Of a stretch of 64,000 nucleotides of DNA, positions 3,051 to 11,430 are shown one piece after another. A program made the translations under genes and the position numbers. The notes under the pieces were generated by a model that saw only the letters and a program-made list of their open reading frames with translations, was not told the DNA's origin and ran no database searches. The DNA lies in contig JABCZK010000002.1 in the NCBI GenBank assembly GCA_013289695.1, forward strand, positions 62,001 through 126,000, written 5' to 3'. Each line of letters begins with the position of its first letter. Position 1 is the first letter of the stretch. This stretch comes from Acidobacteriota bacterium (GTDB taxonomy: Bacteria; Acidobacteriota; Terriglobia; Acidiferrales; UBA7541).

Positions 3051-3200
3051 CTGGAAATTCTCTGAGGCGGGGCAAATAGGGGCCAGGGCCAGCGGTAGAA
3101 ACCCACTATTGTGCAATGCAGCACGCCGGTGTTCGATTGGTCAATTAGGCATTTCCGGCCCGTGGGCAGGCTCTATAATGGAGTCTCTCGGGAGCCCATC

Positions 3201-4280
3201 GTGGACACGGAAAAAATTCTGGTAGTGGACGACGAAGAGGCAATTCGCGAAGTCGTTTCGACCCTGCTGGAAGCACAGGGGTACCACTGCACCGTGTGTT
3301 CGAACGGACGCATGGCCCTGGACGCTTTTCGCAAGGATACCTTCGACCTGGCGTTGAGCGACATCGTCATGCCCGAAATGGATGGGCTGAAATTGCTGGC
3401 CGAGCTTCGCAACGAAGATCCGGATGTGCCCGTCATCATGGTCACGGCGATGCACGACATTTCCATCGCGCTGCAAGCAATTCGCGCAGGCGCCTACGAC
3501 TATATCCTGAAGCCATTCGAAAAAGATCAGCTGCATCTGAGCGTGCGGCGCGCGCTGGAACACCGCCGGCTGGTGATGGAGAACCGCACCTACCAGAGCG
3601 ACCTGGAACACCTGGTAGCCGAGCGCACCCAGCAGCTTTCTATCGCCTTGCAGGACCTGGAGCAATCGTACGATTACACGCTGGAGGCGCTGGGCGGCGC
3701 GCTGGACGCGAAAGATGCGGAGACGGAAGGCCATTGCCAGCGCGTGACCGCGTTCACGATTAAGATCGCGCGGTCCATGGGCGTGGATCCAGGAGCATTG
3801 CGCCAGATCGCGCGCGGCGCGTTTCTGCACGACATCGGCAAGATGGGCGTGCCCGACAGCATTTTGCGCAAGCCCGGACCATTGACGAACGAAGAGCGCG
3901 AGATCATGCGCAAGCACTGCGAGATTGGTTTTTCGGTGCTGGAGCGGATTCCCTTCTTGAAGGAAGCGGCCGAGATTGTACTGGCGCACCAGGAGTGCTT
4001 CGACGGGTCGGGTTACCCTCATAAATTGAAAGGCGAACAGATTCCGCTGGGCGCCAGAATTTTCGCGGTGGCAGACACGCTGGACGCCATGATTTCCGAC
4101 CGGCCCTATCGCAAGGCGCTGCCGATCTCCGCAGCGCGCGCGGAGATTCAGAAGTATTCCGGAAAGCAATTTGACCCCAAAGTTGTAGAGGTTTTTTTGT
4201 CGCATCCAGATCGCGTGTGGATGGAGTTGCACGAAAACGTCGGGGATCCGTTCCGCATGACACAGCTGACGCGCGCATAA
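3201..4280 (+). CDS. Response regulator with HD-GYP domain (putative cyclic di-GMP phosphodiesterase)
   Basis: 359 residues from a GTG start preceded by GGGAG; the frame is open upstream, but homology begins at this start. Residues 1-125 are a receiver domain with the acidic pocket (VVDDEE), phospho-acceptor Asp54 (ALSDIVMP), Thr82 and Lys104 (LKPFE). A helical linker with coiled-coil character (about 126-160) leads to an HD domain with HD at 210-211 (FLHDIGK) and the GYP signature at 271-273 (DGSGYP). By family knowledge such proteins hydrolyse cyclic di-GMP to GMP in response to a histidine kinase; no kinase is adjacent. A TATAAT at 3174-3179 could be the -10 element of a short-leader promoter. 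Confidence 0.9.
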   Translation: MDTEKILVVDDEEAIREVVSTLLEAQGYHCTVCSNGRMALDAFRKDTFDLALSDIVMPEMDGLKLLAELRNEDPDVPVIMVTAMHDISIALQAIRAGAYDYILKPFEKDQLHLSVRRALEHRRLVMENRTYQSDLEHLVAERTQQLSIALQDLEQSYDYTLEALGGALDAKDAETEGHCQRVTAFTIKIARSMGVDPGALRQIARGAFLHDIGKMGVPDSILRKPGPLTNEEREIMRKHCEIGFSVLERIPFLKEAAEIVLAHQECFDGSGYPHKLKGEQIPLGARIFAVADTLDAMISDRPYRKALPISAARAEIQKYSGKQFDPKVVEVFLSHPDRVWMELHENVGDPFRMTQLTRA

Positions 4281-4708: not shown

Positions 4709-5869
4709 CTAGAATATCTCGAGCAAGAGTTTCACCCCCTTGGCAAAGTCTTCTTCGCGCGTAATCAGACTCACAATCAAAAATCCGTCGGATGGGAAAT
4801 CGTAGAAATGGCCCGGATGAACATAGACGTTTTTTTGGTTCAACAGTTCGATAGCTAGTTCTTCGTCTGACCGCGTCGCGGGGACGCGCAGCACCGCGTA
4901 CCAGCCGCCTTCCACCACAAGCCGAGCGCAGGATTTCTGCGTTGCCAGTTGGTGATCCAGTTCCGCCAGGTTTTTTTGGATACGCGACGACAACTGCGTT
5001 TGAAACGACTGGCGCTGTTCGAGCGACGCGGGGATTGCCCACTGAACTGGGGCGTTCATCGAAAGGTAAGTGTCCGCGATTATTTCCAGGCGCGCCAATG
5101 CGTCCGCTTTCAGCCCCTCGGGTCCGCTGGTGATGAGCCATGCGGCTTTCATCTGCGGCAGACCGGATATTTTGGACAAGCCGCTCATTGTGAAGGTCAG
5201 GGCGGCAGAATTTTGCGCGAAGCTGAATGGCGCGCGGCCTCGGTGCAGTGTGAAATCCAGAAACACTTCGTCGGCGATGATCGCCAAATTCCGGGCCGAA
5301 CAGATTTCGTTCAGCTTCGTCAGCTCGCCAGCTTTGGTGAAATGCCCGGTCGGATTATTCGGGTGGACGACGATCACCCCGCGCGTGCGCGACGTAATGG
5401 CCTGCTGCAAGGTGTGGAAATTAATCTGCCAGCCGTAATCATAGGCGAGCGGATAGCGCGCGAGCTTCACGTCCTGAATATCGGCAAGGAACGCGAAGAG
5501 CGGATAGCTGGGCTCGGGAATCAGGATTTCGTCGCCGGAGTTGCAGAGCGTGCGGAAGACGTAGGAGTAGGCTTCGCTGGTGCTGGTGGTAAGGATGATG
5601 CTGTCAACCGGCACTTCCGTGCCGCGTGCAGCATAGTACGCGGCGACCGCATGCCGAGCGCTCGGCAAACCTCGAGGGTCTGGGTCGTACGCAAGACTGG
5701 TCGGATTCGCGAGCGCTTGCAGGATGGCGCGACTGTCGTAATCGAACCCGCACTCCGTGGGGTTTGAGGCTGTGAGATCCAGTAATGCTTTACCCGAAGT
5801 GCGATGCTGGGCGAGAGCTTCGCTCAGCGGATTTGCTTTCAGGTTCCAATTGGTGCGATCGGCAAACAC
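4709..5869 (-). CDS. Pyridoxal phosphate-dependent aminotransferase (class I/II)
   Basis: 386 residues with a complete fold-type I aminotransferase signature: SNPTECGF near the N-terminus, NNPTG at 171-175, the pyridine-nitrogen Asp in IIADEVF at about 200, and the Schiff-base Lys233 in GLSKISGLP. The start is a GTG. The substrate is not determined; members of this group include alanine, aspartate and valine-type aminotransferases. Transcription is divergent from the peroxiredoxin at 6040, so the ~170 bp between them should hold both promoters. Confidence 0.88.
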   Translation of the reverse strand: MFADRTNWNLKANPLSEALAQHRTSGKALLDLTASNPTECGFDYDSRAILQALANPTSLAYDPDPRGLPSARHAVAAYYAARGTEVPVDSIILTTSTSEAYSYVFRTLCNSGDEILIPEPSYPLFAFLADIQDVKLARYPLAYDYGWQINFHTLQQAITSRTRGVIVVHPNNPTGHFTKAGELTKLNEICSARNLAIIADEVFLDFTLHRGRAPFSFAQNSAALTFTMSGLSKISGLPQMKAAWLITSGPEGLKADALARLEIIADTYLSMNAPVQWAIPASLEQRQSFQTQLSSRIQKNLAELDHQLATQKSCARLVVEGGWYAVLRVPATRSDEELAIELLNQKNVYVHPGHFYDFPSDGFLIVSLITREEDFAKGVKLLLEIF

Positions 5870-5995
5870 TTCGTCCGTGCCCCCGGTGTGACTGACGAAT
5901 TATAGGGAAAGCGCGACGAAGGAACAGCGAAATCCGACGTGCGCTTCTGGCGCAGAGTTTACGCCGCCGTTACAAGCAAAGAGGCGAAACATGGC

Positions 5996-6001
5996 TATAA
6001 T
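5996..6001 (+). promoter_or_regulatory. Candidate -10 box for the selenoprotein-like peroxiredoxin
   Basis: A perfect TATAAT lies 39 bp upstream of the ATG at 6040. No convincing -35 box is present at the usual 17-bp spacing, so this is a weak promoter call. A good ribosome site, AGGAG, follows at 6028-6032, seven bases before the ATG. Confidence 0.35.
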
Positions 6002-6039
6002 TGTGGTGCGCAGTTTGCAAATTCAATAGGAGATAACCG

Positions 6040-6615
6040 ATGAAAAGGATCGTCACTGCCGTCGTCGGGCTTCTCCTGCTGCTGGTGCCGGCGGGTCAAT
6101 TCTCCGCCGCGGCGCAGGAAGATGCCATCGCCAAGACGAACTTGAAGGTGGGAGACGTGGCGCCGGACTTCACTCTGCTGGCGAACAACTGGAAGCCGGT
6201 GAAGCTGAGTGATTTCCGCGGCAAGAAAAACGTGATCCTGGCTTTTTACGTTCTCGCGTTTACCGGCGGTTGAACGAAGGAATTACAGGCCTATCAGGCT
6301 GATATGGCCAAGCTGGAAGCAAGCGACACCGTGGTACTGGGAATCAGCATTGACAGCCCCGCAGCAAACGCCGCATTTGCAAAACAGATCGCAGTGACGT
6401 TTCCGCTCCTCAGCGATATGAACCGTAAAGTCCTTACCGCGTACGGAATCTTGAAGCCCTACGATGTGCAAGGGGACAAATACGAGTGGGCGCAACGAAC
6501 CACCATCGTAGTTGATAAAGAGGGAAAAATTCAGCATGTCGAGCAGGGAGACGGCGCCGTGGATCCGAACAGCGCTGTTGCGATCTGTACCGATTTGCAC
6601 AAACCTAAAAGCTAG
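6040..6615 (+). CDS. Secreted peroxiredoxin/AhpC-TSA-type protein with in-frame UGA (probable selenocysteine)
   Basis: The frame runs from the ATG at 6040 to the TAG at 6613-6615 and is interrupted only by TGA at 6271-6273. Read through, it gives 191 residues: a signal peptide (about 1-25), then a thioredoxin-fold peroxiredoxin ([44 protein letters not shown]). The UGA is codon 78, within AFTGG-U-TKEL, exactly where the peroxidatic Cys of a TxxC motif belongs. A hairpin with SECIS features follows (6288-6309). A second Cys near the end (about 183) could act as a resolving residue. The usual Pro of the Prx active site is Val here. I infer a selenoperoxidase reducing peroxides outside the cytoplasm. 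The alternative is a nonsense-mutated gene, but the rest of the frame shows no decay. Confidence 0.8.
6288..6309 (+). promoter_or_regulatory. Bacterial SECIS-like hairpin downstream of the in-frame UGA
   Basis: GGCC (6288-6291) and TATCA (6292-6296) pair with TGATA (6300-6304) and GGCC (6306-6309), giving nine base pairs with one bulged U (6305) and an apical loop of GGC. The loop begins 23 nt after the UGA. A short loop with leading GG, a bulged U and this distance fit the known form of bacterial SECIS elements, which lie inside the coding region just after the Sec codon and recruit SelB. In E. coli fdhF the bulged U is on the 5' side; here it is on the 3' side. Confidence 0.7.
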
Positions 6616-6643
6616 CCGAGCGGAGTACCGCGGCAATTGCGGC

Positions 6644-6671
6644 GCGGATGCCCAATGAACTCGGCATCCGC
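6644..6671. terminator. Inverted repeat between convergent genes, possible bidirectional terminator
   Basis: GCGGATGCC at 6644-6652 and its perfect complement GGCATCCGC at 6663-6671 enclose a 10-nt loop. It sits between the peroxiredoxin stop (6615) and the convergent end of the cytochrome oxidase operon (6703). There is no T-run on either side, so it is not a classical intrinsic terminator. Confidence 0.4.
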
Positions 6672-6702
6672 CGCTGCGGCGGCTCGACTGGATAGCGTTG
6701 AA

Positions 6703-6945
6703 TTAACGCGCGACGTTGCGGCGGCGGTAAATCAGGGCAAAGATTCCTACGAACAAGCTAATCGCGGGTACGAACAAGAGCAAAATGCCGTGGCGCAGCG
6801 CCGCGCCGCCTTGCGCGCCGGAAGCTGCCGCGCCTTGGTAACACATGGCGCAGCTTTGCGCGTGAACGTGCGGGATGGGCAGCGCGATCAGGGTCGCGCA
6901 ACAAGCTAGCAGCAGCACTGCACGAATTATGGCGTCACTCTTCAC
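6703..6945 (-). CDS. Small membrane protein of the cytochrome oxidase operon
   Basis: 80 residues from a GTG start at 6945, which has a GGGAGAA ribosome site. An upstream start at 6999 is possible but adds a polar leader with no ribosome site. The protein has a signal-like hydrophobic N-terminus (IIRAVLLLACCATLIALP), a CxxC pair (SCAMCYQ) and one C-terminal membrane segment ending in YRRRN. It is the last gene of the oxidase operon. I infer a role in oxidase assembly or copper handling from the CxxC and position only. Confidence 0.65.
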   Translation of the reverse strand: MKSDAIIRAVLLLACCATLIALPIPHVHAQSCAMCYQGAAASGAQGGAALRHGILLLFVPAISLFVGIFALIYRRRNVAR

Positions 6946-7003
6946 TTCGTTCTCCCGCGTTTCTTTCGCTCGCAGCAGGAAGCAATTACGCACAGCCATC
7001 GCG

Positions 7004-7336
7004 TCAATGCGGCCTGAGGTGCATCAGGCGGACGCTATCTGGAAAGAACATGATCAGCATCATGCAGATGCAAAACACCATGGCCGGGATCAGCAATAGG
7101 AATAATCCCAGACGCTCAAAGCGCATGTGCATGAAATAGGAAATGATCAGGGCCGCTTTGATGAGCGAGAGGCCCACCAGGATCGTAATCATCAAATGCA
7201 CTTCCAAGCGCAGATAAGCTAGAAAAACCTCCACGATCGTCAGCAGCAGCAGCCAGACCCAAACCGTGGCGAATAGTTTGGTCGTGCCTACCGCGTGCTC
7301 GTGCGTGAGCTCGGCGGTGTGTCCCTGTGCGCTCAT
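7004..7336 (-). CDS. ctaF: Cytochrome c oxidase subunit IV (prokaryotic type)
   Basis: 110 residues with three predicted membrane segments (WVWLLLLTIVEVFLAYL, ITILVGLSLIKAALIISYFMHM, FLLLIPAMVFCICMMLIMFF) after a short hydrophilic, His-containing N-terminus. Size, topology and the SYFMHMRFE stretch match the small cytochrome oxidase subunit IV family, which packs against subunits I and III and assists assembly. It follows the second subunit III gene by 28 bp in the same operon. Confidence 0.82.
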   Translation of the reverse strand: MSAQGHTAELTHEHAVGTTKLFATVWVWLLLLTIVEVFLAYLRLEVHLMITILVGLSLIKAALIISYFMHMRFERLGLFLLLIPAMVFCICMMLIMFFPDSVRLMHLRPH

Positions 7337-7364
7337 CGGTTCGCTTGCTCCCTTGTTATCGATG

Positions 7365-8003
7365 TCACTTCGGGTTCACGCTCAACAAATACACCATCGG
7401 AAAAATAAACATCCAAACTAGGTCCACAAAGTGCCAGTACAGGCCGCTGACTTCCACGTGCTCGGCCGTGTATTTCCCCTTCCCGAATCCCCACGCGATG
7501 ATCGCGAGATAAACCACGCCGATCGTGACGTGCAGCATGTGCAGGCCGGTAAGACCAAAAAACGTGCCACCGAAAAGCGGAGCGGCCGGATTGAAGGGGT
7601 TCGACCACGGCGTGACGCCTTCACCCACAAGCGTGACCCATTCCGTTGCGTGAATCCCGACGAAGGCTATGCCGCAAATAATTGTGGCGATCAGGTAGCG
7701 CACGGTTTTCTTTCGGTCGCCGTTGAACGCGGCATTTACCCCCAGAACCATCGTCAAGCTGCTGGAGAGCAGCACGAACGTCATCAAGGACGATTTGGCA
7801 ATGGCCGGCCAGATTTCAAATGGGCGCGGCCAGTTCGGTGTCTCGAGGCGAACGTACGCATAGCTGATGAGCAGGGCCGAGAACGTGAGCGAATCCGAAA
7901 TGATGAACAGCCACATCCCCAATTTTTTCGAATTGATGGCGAAGGGAGACGCGCCGCCGGACCACGGCGATGCGACTATGCCTTCGAATTCCGTGTCACT
8001 CAC
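7365..8003 (-). CDS. ctaE: Cytochrome c oxidase subunit III, second copy
   Basis: 212 residues, predicted five-segment integral membrane protein of the COX3 family. Family features include KLGMWLFIISDSLTF near the start and the C-terminal signature GLTGLHMLHVTIGVVYL and VSGLYWHFVDLVWMFIFPMVYLL. Subunit III stabilises the oxidase and the proton uptake pathway. It starts 3 bp after the stop of the upstream subunit III gene, so translation is probably coupled. The two copies differ clearly in sequence, so this is an old duplication rather than a recent one. Confidence 0.88.
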   Translation of the reverse strand: MSDTEFEGIVASPWSGGASPFAINSKKLGMWLFIISDSLTFSALLISYAYVRLETPNWPRPFEIWPAIAKSSLMTFVLLSSSLTMVLGVNAAFNGDRKKTVRYLIATIICGIAFVGIHATEWVTLVGEGVTPWSNPFNPAAPLFGGTFFGLTGLHMLHVTIGVVYLAIIAWGFGKGKYTAEHVEVSGLYWHFVDLVWMFIFPMVYLLSVNPK

Positions 8004-8006
8004 GCT

Positions 8007-8681
8007 TCACCTTCCCAGGTAGAGGAGTAGAAACAAGAAGACCCACAGCCCGTCCATGAAATGCCAGTACATGGAGACAACTTCGATCGCCGTGCCGCGC
8101 GCGACCTTTCTGGTGGCTCGGAACTGCACGTAGAGCAGCGCCAGAATTCCGCCCAGCAAGTGCAAACCGTGCGCGCCGGTGAAAACGTAAAAAAAGCTGC
8201 TGCTGGGATTGCTGGCGAGGAAAATTCCCTGGGCGGCGAGCTGGCGCCAGGCGATGATTTGTCCGGCGACGAAAAGAATGCCGAGAAACGTGGTGGTGGC
8301 CCACCAGTGGCGGAAGCCTTCCTCGTCTTGCGCTTTGAAGCGATTGTGCGCGCGCCCGAGGGTGAGGCTGCTGGCAATCAGAACCAAAGTGTTGAGCCAC
8401 AGAATGCGCGGACCTTGCAGCGGAATCCAGGCGCTGTTAGGCATGTCCTTGCGGACGATGTAGGCGCTGACGAACGCCATGAAGAACATCAGTATGCCGG
8501 CGAGCGCGATGAACATTCCGGTGACGTAAGCGCGCTGCGGAACCCTGGTCGCGCCGGACGAATCGCCGCGGCCACCGTCTCCGTCTCCGCCGTTTCCTCC
8601 GTCGCCGGAGGAATCGCCTCCGCCCGGGCCCTTGCCCGAATGAATCAGTTCGATTTCTTCGGTAACGATTGTGCTTGGCAT
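8007..8681 (-). CDS. ctaE: Cytochrome c oxidase subunit III, first copy, with Gly/Asp-rich N-terminus
   Basis: 224 residues. Residues about 17-43 form a low-complexity run of Gly, Asp and Ser that no other gene here shows; it is probably a flexible cytoplasmic extension. The rest is a five-segment COX3 protein with GAHGLHLLGGILALLYV and VVSMYWHFMDGLWVFLFLLLYL. It lies between subunit I and the second subunit III. The pair may form a heteromeric subunit III or belong to alternative complexes; the sequence cannot say which. Confidence 0.88.
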   Translation of the reverse strand: MPSTIVTEEIELIHSGKGPGGGDSSGDGGNGGDGDGGRGDSSGATRVPQRAYVTGMFIALAGILMFFMAFVSAYIVRKDMPNSAWIPLQGPRILWLNTLVLIASSLTLGRAHNRFKAQDEEGFRHWWATTTFLGILFVAGQIIAWRQLAAQGIFLASNPSSSFFYVFTGAHGLHLLGGILALLYVQFRATRKVARGTAIEVVSMYWHFMDGLWVFLFLLLYLGR

Positions 8682-8747
8682 TGCATTACTCCAAAACTTG
8701 CTCAGTCCCTGGCTAATCCTGGCGGGTGGTCCAGGAGGGCTACTGCG

Positions 8748-10517
8748 CTATTTTACACGCGCTACCTGCGCCGGCTCTTGCCATTGCGGGATGAAGTCGT
8801 CCACCGCGCCGGGAACGCTGAATTCGTACGGCCCGCGATAGACGCTGGGATAGTGGCCGCCAAAATTATCAATGGGCGGCGGCGAATCGGTGTCCCATTC
8901 CAGAGTCGTGGCGTTCCAGGGATTCTTGGAAGCCTTCGGCCCGAACTTCAAGCTGTAGAAAAAGTTGCACAGGAAGAACAGCTGTGCGGCGCCGGTGATG
9001 AACGCGGCGATGGTCATGAATTCGTGCACGGGCTGCAGATGCGCAAGGAAACCGACGGCGGAGGCGTCCGCGTAACGCCGGATGCCGCCCGCGATTCCGA
9101 TGAAGTGCATGGGCATGAAGATGCAGTAGGCTCCGACGAACGTGAACCAGAAATGAATCTTGCCCAGCGGCTCGTTCATCATGCGTCCGAACATCTTCGG
9201 GAACCAGAAATACGTGGCGGCGAAAATTCCGAATATGGCGGCGACGCCCATCACCAGATGGAAGTGCGCGACCACGTAGTAAGTGGCGTGCAGCATGTTA
9301 TCTACGGCTGGCTGCGCGAGAAACAAACCGGAGAGGCCGCCTGAAACAAACAGCGAAACGAAGCCGAGCGCGAACAGCATCGGCGTCTTGAATTGAATCT
9401 TGCCGCCCCACAGAGTGCCGAGCCAGTTAAACGTTTTAATGGCCGAGGGCACGCCGATGGACATTGTCAGCACGGAAAACGCGAAGCCGGAATAGGGGCT
9501 CATGCCGCTGACAAACATGTGATGGCCCCAGACCATGAATCCCAGGAAACCGATGGCGCAGATGGCGTAGGCCATCGCGCGATAACCGTAAACTGGCTTG
9601 CGCGCGAAGGTGGAAAGCACGTGCGAGGCGACTCCCATGCCGGGAAGAATCGCGATGTAAACCTCAGGGTGCCCGAAAAACCAGAAAAGATGCTGCCACA
9701 GCAGAGGTGAACCGCCGCTGTGCGCCTGCAGTTGGTCGTTGACTACTAAGCCCGCGGGAATGAAGAAGCTGGTGCCCGCAGAACGATCCAGCAGAAGCAA
9801 AATTCCACCGGCGAGCAAGACGCCGAAAGCCAGCAAGCCCAGAATCGCGGTGACGAACCAGCCCCACACCGTGAGCGGCAAGCGCATCAGGCTCATGCCG
9901 GGAGCGCGCAGGTCAATCGTGGTCGCGATGAAATTCAGCGCGCCGAGCAGCGACGCGAGGCAGAAGAGCGAAATACTCAGGATCCACAGAGTCTGGCCCC
10001 AACCTTCACCGGGTCCCGTGATTTCGCCGAGGCCGCTGAGAGGCGTGTAACCCGTCCAGCCGCTGATAGGCGCGCCGCCGGGAACGACGAACGCGGCGAT
10101 GATGCAAACGAAGGCCAGAAACGTGACCCAGAAAGAGAGCATATTCAAACGGGGGAAGGCCATGTCCGGCGCACCAATTTGAATGGGCAGAAAATAATTG
10201 CCGAAGCCGCCTTGCGGAGCGGTGGTGAGCACGAAGAAAACCATGATGGTGCCGTGCATGGTGACCAGCGCCAGGTACTGCTCTTGCGACATCTGCCCGC
10301 CGCTTACGAATGGCAAAGTCGCGTTGGGCCACACCAGGTGAAAGCGCATCAGCAACGAGAGCACGATCCCGATGACCACCGCCGTCAGCGCCAGCAGGAA
10401 ATACTGGATGCCGATGACCTTGTGGTCCACGCTGAAAATATATTTCCGGATGAAACCGCTGGGCTCTGCAATCGGAGCGTGCACAGTCGATCCACCTGTG
10501 TGCGCGTGCGAACTCAT
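8748..10517 (-). CDS. ctaD: Cytochrome c oxidase subunit I (heme-copper oxidase catalytic subunit)
   Basis: 589 residues, about twelve membrane segments. All six heme and copper ligands are in place: His88 (TMHGTIM) and His420 (VVAHFHLVMG) for the low-spin heme, His283 in HPEVY with the cross-linked Tyr287, His332-His333 (WGHHMFVSG) for CuB, and His418 for the high-spin heme. The HPEVY motif places it in the A family (aa3/caa3 type) with a K-channel Tyr. It reduces oxygen to water with proton pumping in the inner membrane. The C-terminus is short and soluble, without a fused subunit III. Confidence 0.96.
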   Translation of the reverse strand: MSSHAHTGGSTVHAPIAEPSGFIRKYIFSVDHKVIGIQYFLLALTAVVIGIVLSLLMRFHLVWPNATLPFVSGGQMSQEQYLALVTMHGTIMVFFVLTTAPQGGFGNYFLPIQIGAPDMAFPRLNMLSFWVTFLAFVCIIAAFVVPGGAPISGWTGYTPLSGLGEITGPGEGWGQTLWILSISLFCLASLLGALNFIATTIDLRAPGMSLMRLPLTVWGWFVTAILGLLAFGVLLAGGILLLLDRSAGTSFFIPAGLVVNDQLQAHSGGSPLLWQHLFWFFGHPEVYIAILPGMGVASHVLSTFARKPVYGYRAMAYAICAIGFLGFMVWGHHMFVSGMSPYSGFAFSVLTMSIGVPSAIKTFNWLGTLWGGKIQFKTPMLFALGFVSLFVSGGLSGLFLAQPAVDNMLHATYYVVAHFHLVMGVAAIFGIFAATYFWFPKMFGRMMNEPLGKIHFWFTFVGAYCIFMPMHFIGIAGGIRRYADASAVGFLAHLQPVHEFMTIAAFITGAAQLFFLCNFFYSLKFGPKASKNPWNATTLEWDTDSPPPIDNFGGHYPSVYRGPYEFSVPGAVDDFIPQWQEPAQVARVK

Positions 10518-10596
10518 GCCTGGCCTCCTGGAAATTGGGTCCGGTTCACTGGGCGTTTCGTGGAGCGAATCATGGGTTGGATCATGATGGATAGGA

Positions 10597-11430
10597 TCAC
10601 TGGCCCGCCGCCTGCTGCTTGAGGAATGCGTCGTAGTCTGCGTCGGAGACCACGTTCAGATAACTGTGCATGCGCGAGTGACCCAGCCCGCACAGCTGCG
10701 TGCAGACCACTTCGTACTGCCCAATCGTATTCGCAGTGAAGTGGAGCGGAATCACCATGCCGGGCATGGCGTCTTGCTGAATGCGCAGTTCGCGCACGTA
10801 AAAATTGTGAATCACATCCTGCGAGCGGATCAGCAGATTGACTTCGTGATTTACCGGAACCGTGAGCGTGGGAACTACGATGTCGTCTTTGCCCGCGGGA
10901 TCATTGGCGTCAATCCCCAGCGGATTTCCGGTGGAGGCGCTGATTTGCTTCGGGTCGAGCCTGCCGAATTTTCCATCGGGGCCGGGATAGCGGAAATTGA
11001 AAACGAACTGGTTGCCGGTGACTTCCACTTGAATCGCGTCGGGAGCCGGCGCAGTGAAGCGGACTTCCGCCCATGCTTTGTGGCCCATCAGTCCAAGGCC
11101 GAGAAAAAGGACGATCGTGGCGGTGGTCCAGATGGCCTCCAGAGTGTTGCTGCCGCGCGTGAAATGCGCTCTCTGGCCGTGGTCTCGAAACTTGAAGACG
11201 GCGAAGGCGAGGCCCAGTTGCGAGAGGATGAACACCGTGCCTGTGACGGCGAGAGTCAGATCATATTGATGATCGATCTCCGCGCCTACGGACGTGATCG
11301 GGGCTGGCCGGACTGCCCAAGGCAAATTCGACGCGAAAACGTAAACGGTGATTGCCACGAGTACTACGAGGATTAACGACAGCAGGGCCGGGGTTGCCAC
11401 AGAACCACTATTGCGCTTCCTGATCCGCAT
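10597..11430 (-). CDS. ctaC: Cytochrome c oxidase subunit II (CuA subunit)
   Basis: 277 residues, first gene of the operon. Two membrane segments (about 16-35 and 58-80, with a further hydrophobic stretch at 100-116) precede a periplasmic cupredoxin domain. CuA ligands are His208, Cys243, Cys247, His251 and Met254. The residue between the two Cys that is usually Glu is Gln245 here (CTQLC). No heme-binding CxxCH motif is present, so this is an aa3-type subunit II without fused cytochrome c. The ~195 bp upstream of 11430 should hold the operon promoter. Confidence 0.93.
   Translation of the reverse strand: MRIRKRNSGSVATPALLSLILVVLVAITVYVFASNLPWAVRPAPITSVGAEIDHQYDLTLAVTGTVFILSQLGLAFAVFKFRDHGQRAHFTRGSNTLEAIWTTATIVLFLGLGLMGHKAWAEVRFTAPAPDAIQVEVTGNQFVFNFRYPGPDGKFGRLDPKQISASTGNPLGIDANDPAGKDDIVVPTLTVPVNHEVNLLIRSQDVIHNFYVRELRIQQDAMPGMVIPLHFTANTIGQYEVVCTQLCGLGHSRMHSYLNVVSDADYDAFLKQQAAGQ

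Follow-up and report, generated by a model that had tools for sequence, protein, structure and literature searches.

An in-frame UGA with a SECIS-type hairpin in the gene of a probably exported selenocysteine peroxiredoxin from the Acidobacteriota

The stretch of DNA analysed here (the window, 64,000 nucleotides of contig JABCZK010000002.1 from the Acidobacteriota assembly GCA_013289695.1) carries on its forward strand, at 6040-6615, a peroxiredoxin-like frame broken by one TGA (6271-6273), which raises the question of whether this codon ends the protein, results from an error or is read as selenocysteine (Sec). Standard-code gene calling stops at the TGA, so that the enzyme is missed. We conclude with high confidence that the gene encodes a Sec-containing, probably exported peroxiredoxin, whose UGA is decoded by way of a downstream hairpin, whose Sec78 would attack peroxides and whose Cys183 probably serves as the resolving residue.

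The gene and the codon at its active site

The gene encodes 191 residues counting Sec and ends in a TAG stop codon (6613-6615), the TGA being the sole interruption of the frame before it; the first-pass annotation, which had described a frame intact on both sides of one TGA, was correct on this point. An AGGAG motif at 6028-6032 (+ strand), 7 nt 5' of the start codon, reads as a likely ribosome-binding site, and the stretch at 6040-6117 encodes a signal-peptide-like N-terminus with no twin arginine. Promoter and terminator scans of positions 5850-6750 found none, and a PHROGs search returned one family of unknown function. The Pfam AhpC-TSA domain (2e-34; 118.6 bits vs a curated cut-off of 26) covers residues 37-166, spanning the TGA.

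Alignment with solved peroxiredoxins places the TGA on their Cys (FTGGU here, FTQVC in Sulfolobus Bcp, FTGIC in mycobacterial AhpE), which confirms the earlier assignment of this codon to the peroxidatic position. The UGA corresponds to residue 78, within the sequence TGGU (a TxxU motif). Thr75 and Arg153 (codon 6496-6498) are invariant in 30 aligned rows, and the latter aligns with the Arg of AhpE and Bcp. An AlphaFold model, in which Cys was substituted for Sec at position 78, had a pLDDT of 84.5, and a fold search with this model retrieved Bcp4 of Sulfolobus as best match, with AhpE close behind.

The codon aligned with the TGA was read in 112 distinct sequences (87 aligned tblastn rows minus one minus-strand row, plus 30 loci, minus four exact duplicates). 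Among the matches listed, and with the window gene included, it is TGA in 73, TGC in 24 and TGT in 15, with no other codon; the homologues thus carry Cys or Sec at this position in 112/112 cases. The same TGA is found in separate genomes whose proteins share 51-82% identity, and a read error, which had been raised as a possibility at the outset, is for this reason excluded in practice. The Sec and Cys labels are clustered on the tree, with 8 changes vs 32.4 when shuffled. This tree came from a quick LG+G4 search, has 32 open forks and flagged long branches (L038, L117 and L093), and was used only for the clustering of labels and for one nine-member clade (see below); one Cys row, L104, has an in-frame stop upstream, and its leading piece was trimmed for the tree.

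The named-genome scan comprised the best 80 of 521 relatives, a sample rather than a census, among which the closer relatives are mostly labelled Acidobacteriota, alongside one draft from Myxococcaceae (L060) and one from Deltaproteobacteria (L089). In 61 genomes, including the source genome, 30 matches scored 150 bits or more; a single in-frame TGA is present in 29 of them and absent from the remaining one (G060). The site was read in 29 of these 30 matches, being TGA in 28 and TGT (Cys) in G060; the second G043 match above this threshold lacked a locus and was left out, and L038 (108.6 bits) was read in its place. A draw of 297 genomes across the phylum gave 50 (own included) with a match at E<=1e-40, and 48 of these have a TGA inside the best match, counted anywhere in it rather than at the Sec column, with TAA or TAG also present in 12 of the 48.

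Eight pairwise comparisons, many of them with saturated dS values, gave nonsynonymous proportions of 0.07-0.27 and synonymous proportions of 0.49-0.88, alike before and after the TGA. In the comparison with L010, the dN/dS ratio is 0.055 before the TGA and 0.072 after it. Since dN is far below dS after the TGA as well, the downstream part is under protein-level selection, and the intact downstream frame that had been noticed earlier is under purifying selection.

The hairpin downstream of the TGA

A bacterial SECIS-type hairpin is located at 6288-6309 (+ strand), with arms at 6288-6296 and 6300-6309, a GGC loop at 6297-6299 and a bulged U at 6305, on the 3' side. It begins 14 nt past the TGA and has 9 bp, its loop beginning 23 nt past the UGA; its sequence is composed of GGCCUAUCA, the loop GGC, UGAUA, the bulged U and GGCC, and the description given by the first-pass annotation was exact. 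The minimum free energy is -10.8 kcal/mol vs an average of -5.9 for shuffled sequences (z -2.4), and 3 of 200 shuffles fold equally well. The core of the hairpin, YATCAGNCTGATR, occurs once in the window (shuffle mean 0.00).

Covariation was counted on the pairs of the window gene's own structure. Across 52 sequences, that is 62 Sec regions minus ten rows without the hairpin, 84.0% of cells are paired, compared with 73.4% after shuffling and 20.3-51.1% when the partner is slid, and 50 cells are doubly changed vs 19.3 in shuffles, with none of 500 shuffles equally high. These stronger figures follow the dropping of the ten rows; with all 62 Sec regions, pairing is 73.3% vs 64.0% shuffled and the doubly changed cells number 51 vs 25.4. 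Two of the five covariation measures are weaker in the 52 sequences (pairs with a double change, for which 36 of 500 shuffles are as high, and further pair types, with 77 of 500), and the outer pairs are disrupted in as many as 20 of the 52. RNAalifold predicted no consensus structure for all 62 Sec regions.

The covariation can be followed in the codons downstream of the Sec codon (residues are numbered from Sec as U+n or U-n). The core of the subfamily was defined as the 64 of 73 Sec rows that have Gln at U+8, and codons at U+7, U+9 and U+10 were counted in 54 of these 64 members. At pair 24-32, TAT at U+7 goes with GAT or GAC at U+10 (36 members), TAC with GGT or GGC (14), and TTC, GTC or ATC with GGA (4), which makes the pair standard in 54/54. 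A silent Tyr change at U+7 is coupled to an Asp/Gly replacement at U+10, and protein constraint alone does not explain this. The third base of the U+9 codon is T in all 54, whereas elsewhere in the same genes, beyond the hairpin region, 15.8% of third bases are T. In three Cys members of the subfamily (L037, L065 and L082) the loop-closing A-U pair is gone. A nine-member clade (L034, L035, L071-L073, L077, L078, L080 and L084) and, in addition, L093 are without this hairpin; the clade retains the TGA, and its SECIS must therefore differ.

A SECIS model built for the family (R1) scores the gene's own hairpin at 64.2 bits, the next best match in the genome having an E value of 1.26; the model is specific to the subfamily, since it finds no other strong match in a genome with other candidate Sec genes. 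An Rfam search of 6200-6420 at E<=10 returned no family, only two matches at chance level (E 5.8 and 7.2). The apical CAGGCUG or CAGUCUG of the present hairpins resembles CAGGUCUG of E. coli fdhF, a sequence whose identity as fdhF was confirmed. The bulged U of the fdhF element is placed otherwise than on the 3' side, where it stands here. The position of the TGA, the hairpin and the downstream frame had originally been read as three agreeing features, and this agreement is borne out by the codon exchange, the covariation and the purifying selection.

Selenocysteine machinery, further candidate genes and neighbourhood

The source genome, a 4.5-Mb draft in 64 contigs that is 87.4% complete, encodes the complete machinery that a selenoprotein had been predicted to imply, each component scoring over its cut-off: SelA (C24:33656-35074; 557 bits, cut-off 267.9), SelB (C20:43201-45081; 361.9 bits, cut-off 242.25), SelD (C44:5558-6508; 368.6 bits, cut-off 125) and tRNA-Sec (C58:3377-3471; 63.1 bits, gathering threshold 47), which ARAGORN also calls as SeC with anticodon tca. 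A TGA-bearing match of 150 bits or more occurs in 28 genomes, counting the source genome, and SelA is over its cut-off in 27 of them; the remaining one, G026 (65% complete), has SelB, SelD and tRNA-Sec over their cut-offs. Four genomes without SelA, SelB or SelD over cut-off (G034, G046, G050 and G054) have no match of at least 150 bits. This co-occurrence adds little weight, because 53 of the 61 genomes have SelA anyway. SelD is over its cut-off in 53 genomes, of which 30 (e.g. G053, G038 and G057) have one TGA inside the SelD match; the SelD match of the source genome contains none.

Five further candidate Sec genes were found in the source genome. Two of them, L142 (C3:64127-64888) and L143 (C9:38243-39010), are formate-dehydrogenase-alpha-like, below the cut-off of that model, and have an in-frame TGA before His (ARLUH and ARVUH) followed by predicted hairpins; this is presumably the usual Sec site of formate dehydrogenase alpha. 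L139 (C20:55741-56703), on the same contig as selB, encodes tandem Bcp-type peroxiredoxins, the first with NTPGC and the second with NTPGU (TGA 56437), and constitutes a Cys/Sec paralogue pair. L141 (C10:54192-54626) is deiodinase-like (Pfam T4_deiodinase, 1.4e-23; TUPPF, TGA 54306), and L140 (C3:11585-11974) encodes an AhpC/TSA-domain protein of the thiol-disulfide type with UPFC, a UxxC motif (TGA 11702).

Downstream of the peroxiredoxin gene and convergent with it lies a cytochrome c oxidase operon (window 7004-11430, - strand) with COX4, two COX3, COX1 and COX2 as assigned by Pfam, parts of which are also found near the selenoprotein gene in some relatives. Between them is a small ORF (6703-6999, - strand); its 98-aa product contains a CAMCYQ motif and is not matched by Pfam, and the ORF also lies near the selenoprotein gene in L010, L013, L016, L017, L019, L020 and L021. 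An upstream ORF (3111-4280) resembles, by eye, a response regulator with an HD domain. With flanks of at most 4 kb, and L009 included, at least one neighbour match was found in 22 of 85 loci and none in 63. A link to the oxidase operon might, as a guess, place the enzyme near aerobic respiration.

Family placement, mechanism and alternatives

Sec-containing peroxiredoxins with a TxxU motif (PF00578/COG1225) are described, in portions of PMC13188914 and PMC9312934, as an established bacterial selenoprotein family, for which the corresponding parts of PMC1088965 and PMC1794560 give 43 and 12 sequences, respectively; the latter also gives four selenoproteins in three families for Acidobacteria. 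The window gene has the AhpC/TSA domain and the T-x-x-U motif in common with this family as so described and, since Sec peroxiredoxins with TxxU are already known in bacteria, it is a new member of it. Its signal-peptide-like N-terminus, its Val for Pro and its C-terminal Cys are traits that do not appear in the relevant portions of PMC1794560, PMC12013277, PMC13188914, PMC1088965 and PMC9312934.

The closest solved structures are those of Sulfolobus Bcp/PrxQ, which gave the best sequence matches (2ywn and 3hjp; 8.6e-27 and 1.5e-24) and the best fold match (3hjp, 1.7e-17). Mycobacterium tuberculosis AhpE (36-38% identity among the best fold matches) has, like the window gene, an FTGxC-type motif and the aligned Arg. 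Both Bcp/PrxQ and AhpE have Cys and Pro, where the window gene has Sec and Val. None of the NCBIfam models reaches its cut-off with the window protein: thioredoxin-dependent PrxU (NF040737) matches at 1.8e-14, yet with 54 bits vs a cut-off of 270, and membership was rejected, while the BCP/PrxQ equivalog (PRK09437) scores 92.9 bits vs 140.

The active-site motif of peroxiredoxins is P-x-x-x-T/S-x-x-C; the window gene matches its Thr and its Cys/Sec position and has Val for Pro. Thr at U-3 is found in 64/64 core members, whose U-7 residues are V (49), I (6), P (7), T (1) and S (1), vs Pro in 34 of 36 other Cys homologues and in 6 of 9 other Sec homologues. Cys at U+5 is present in none of the 64, vs 24 of 36 more distant Cys homologues. 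On visual inspection and under a crude hydrophobicity criterion, the N-terminus of the window protein resembles a signal peptide, and the protein is probably exported. Under the same criterion, a possible start giving a hydrophobic N-terminus exists in 29 of 30 loci (own included), a lenient count because the script took the best-scoring start; the exception is L037, a Cys member.

In the proposed mechanism, SelB and Sec-tRNA would read the UGA at codon 78 owing to the hairpin 14 nt downstream, and translation would run on as far as the TAG stop (6613-6615). The putative signal peptide would direct the protein to the periplasm, where the selenolate of Sec78, beside Thr75 and Arg153, may attack peroxides. 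The resulting selenenic acid would probably be resolved by Cys183 (U+105; codon 6586-6588), giving a selenenylsulfide that some thiol system would then reduce.

Three alternatives concern the reading of the UGA itself. A sequencing error or a nonsense mutation of recent origin, in a misread Cys peroxiredoxin or a pseudogene, could be suggested by the draft state of the genome and by the single base that separates TGA from TGC or TGT; with the same TGA column in 72 other distinct sequences among the matches listed, purifying selection before and after the TGA and fixed third bases within the hairpin, we regard this explanation as scarcely credible. It is very improbable, too, that the TGA is a true stop that leaves a short N-terminal peptide and a C-terminal piece reinitiated at ATG 6304: the mechanical ORF list does contain such a frame (6304-6615, 103 aa), whereas the AhpC/TSA match runs across the TGA, the column holds only TGA or Cys codons, and the Sec machinery is present. 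Insertion of another amino acid, Trp or a near-cognate one, can be given just as little chance, since the exchange partner is always Cys, a tRNA-Sec with anticodon tca is present, and the Cys members that were mentioned above have lost the loop-closing pair.

A further alternative accepts the selenoprotein and takes it as a 1-Cys type in which Cys183 is not resolving. It can appeal to AhpE, a 1-Cys peroxiredoxin by its PDB title, among the matches, and we consider it a possibility to be taken seriously, if the less probable one. It is opposed by the conservation of a Cys in the interval U+94 to U+110, which 63 of the 64 core Sec members and 3/3 subfamily Cys members possess; among the other homologues it is present in 2 of 9 with Sec and in 1 of 36 with Cys. 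The observed positions range from U+96 to U+108. Cys183, as the C-terminal Cys kept across the subfamily, is thus the probable partner of Sec78.

Taken jointly, these traits would describe a distinct exported peroxiredoxin subfamily, mainly of Acidobacteriota, with Sec prevailing and Val or Ile replacing Pro, in which Sec forms a selenenylsulfide with the C-terminal Cys that resolves it, the requirements of the hairpin decide between Asp and Gly at U+10 (matched to the U+7 codon), and loss of Sec to Cys frees this constraint; we give this combined reading about an even chance. The Sec-containing, probably exported peroxiredoxin that we favour would mean, if true, that selenium is invested in an exported peroxidase by members of a large phylum of bacteria. 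The family is a clean natural case of an in-frame RNA element in which base pairs and an amino-acid replacement covary, and it also offers Cys members in which the RNA element has decayed.
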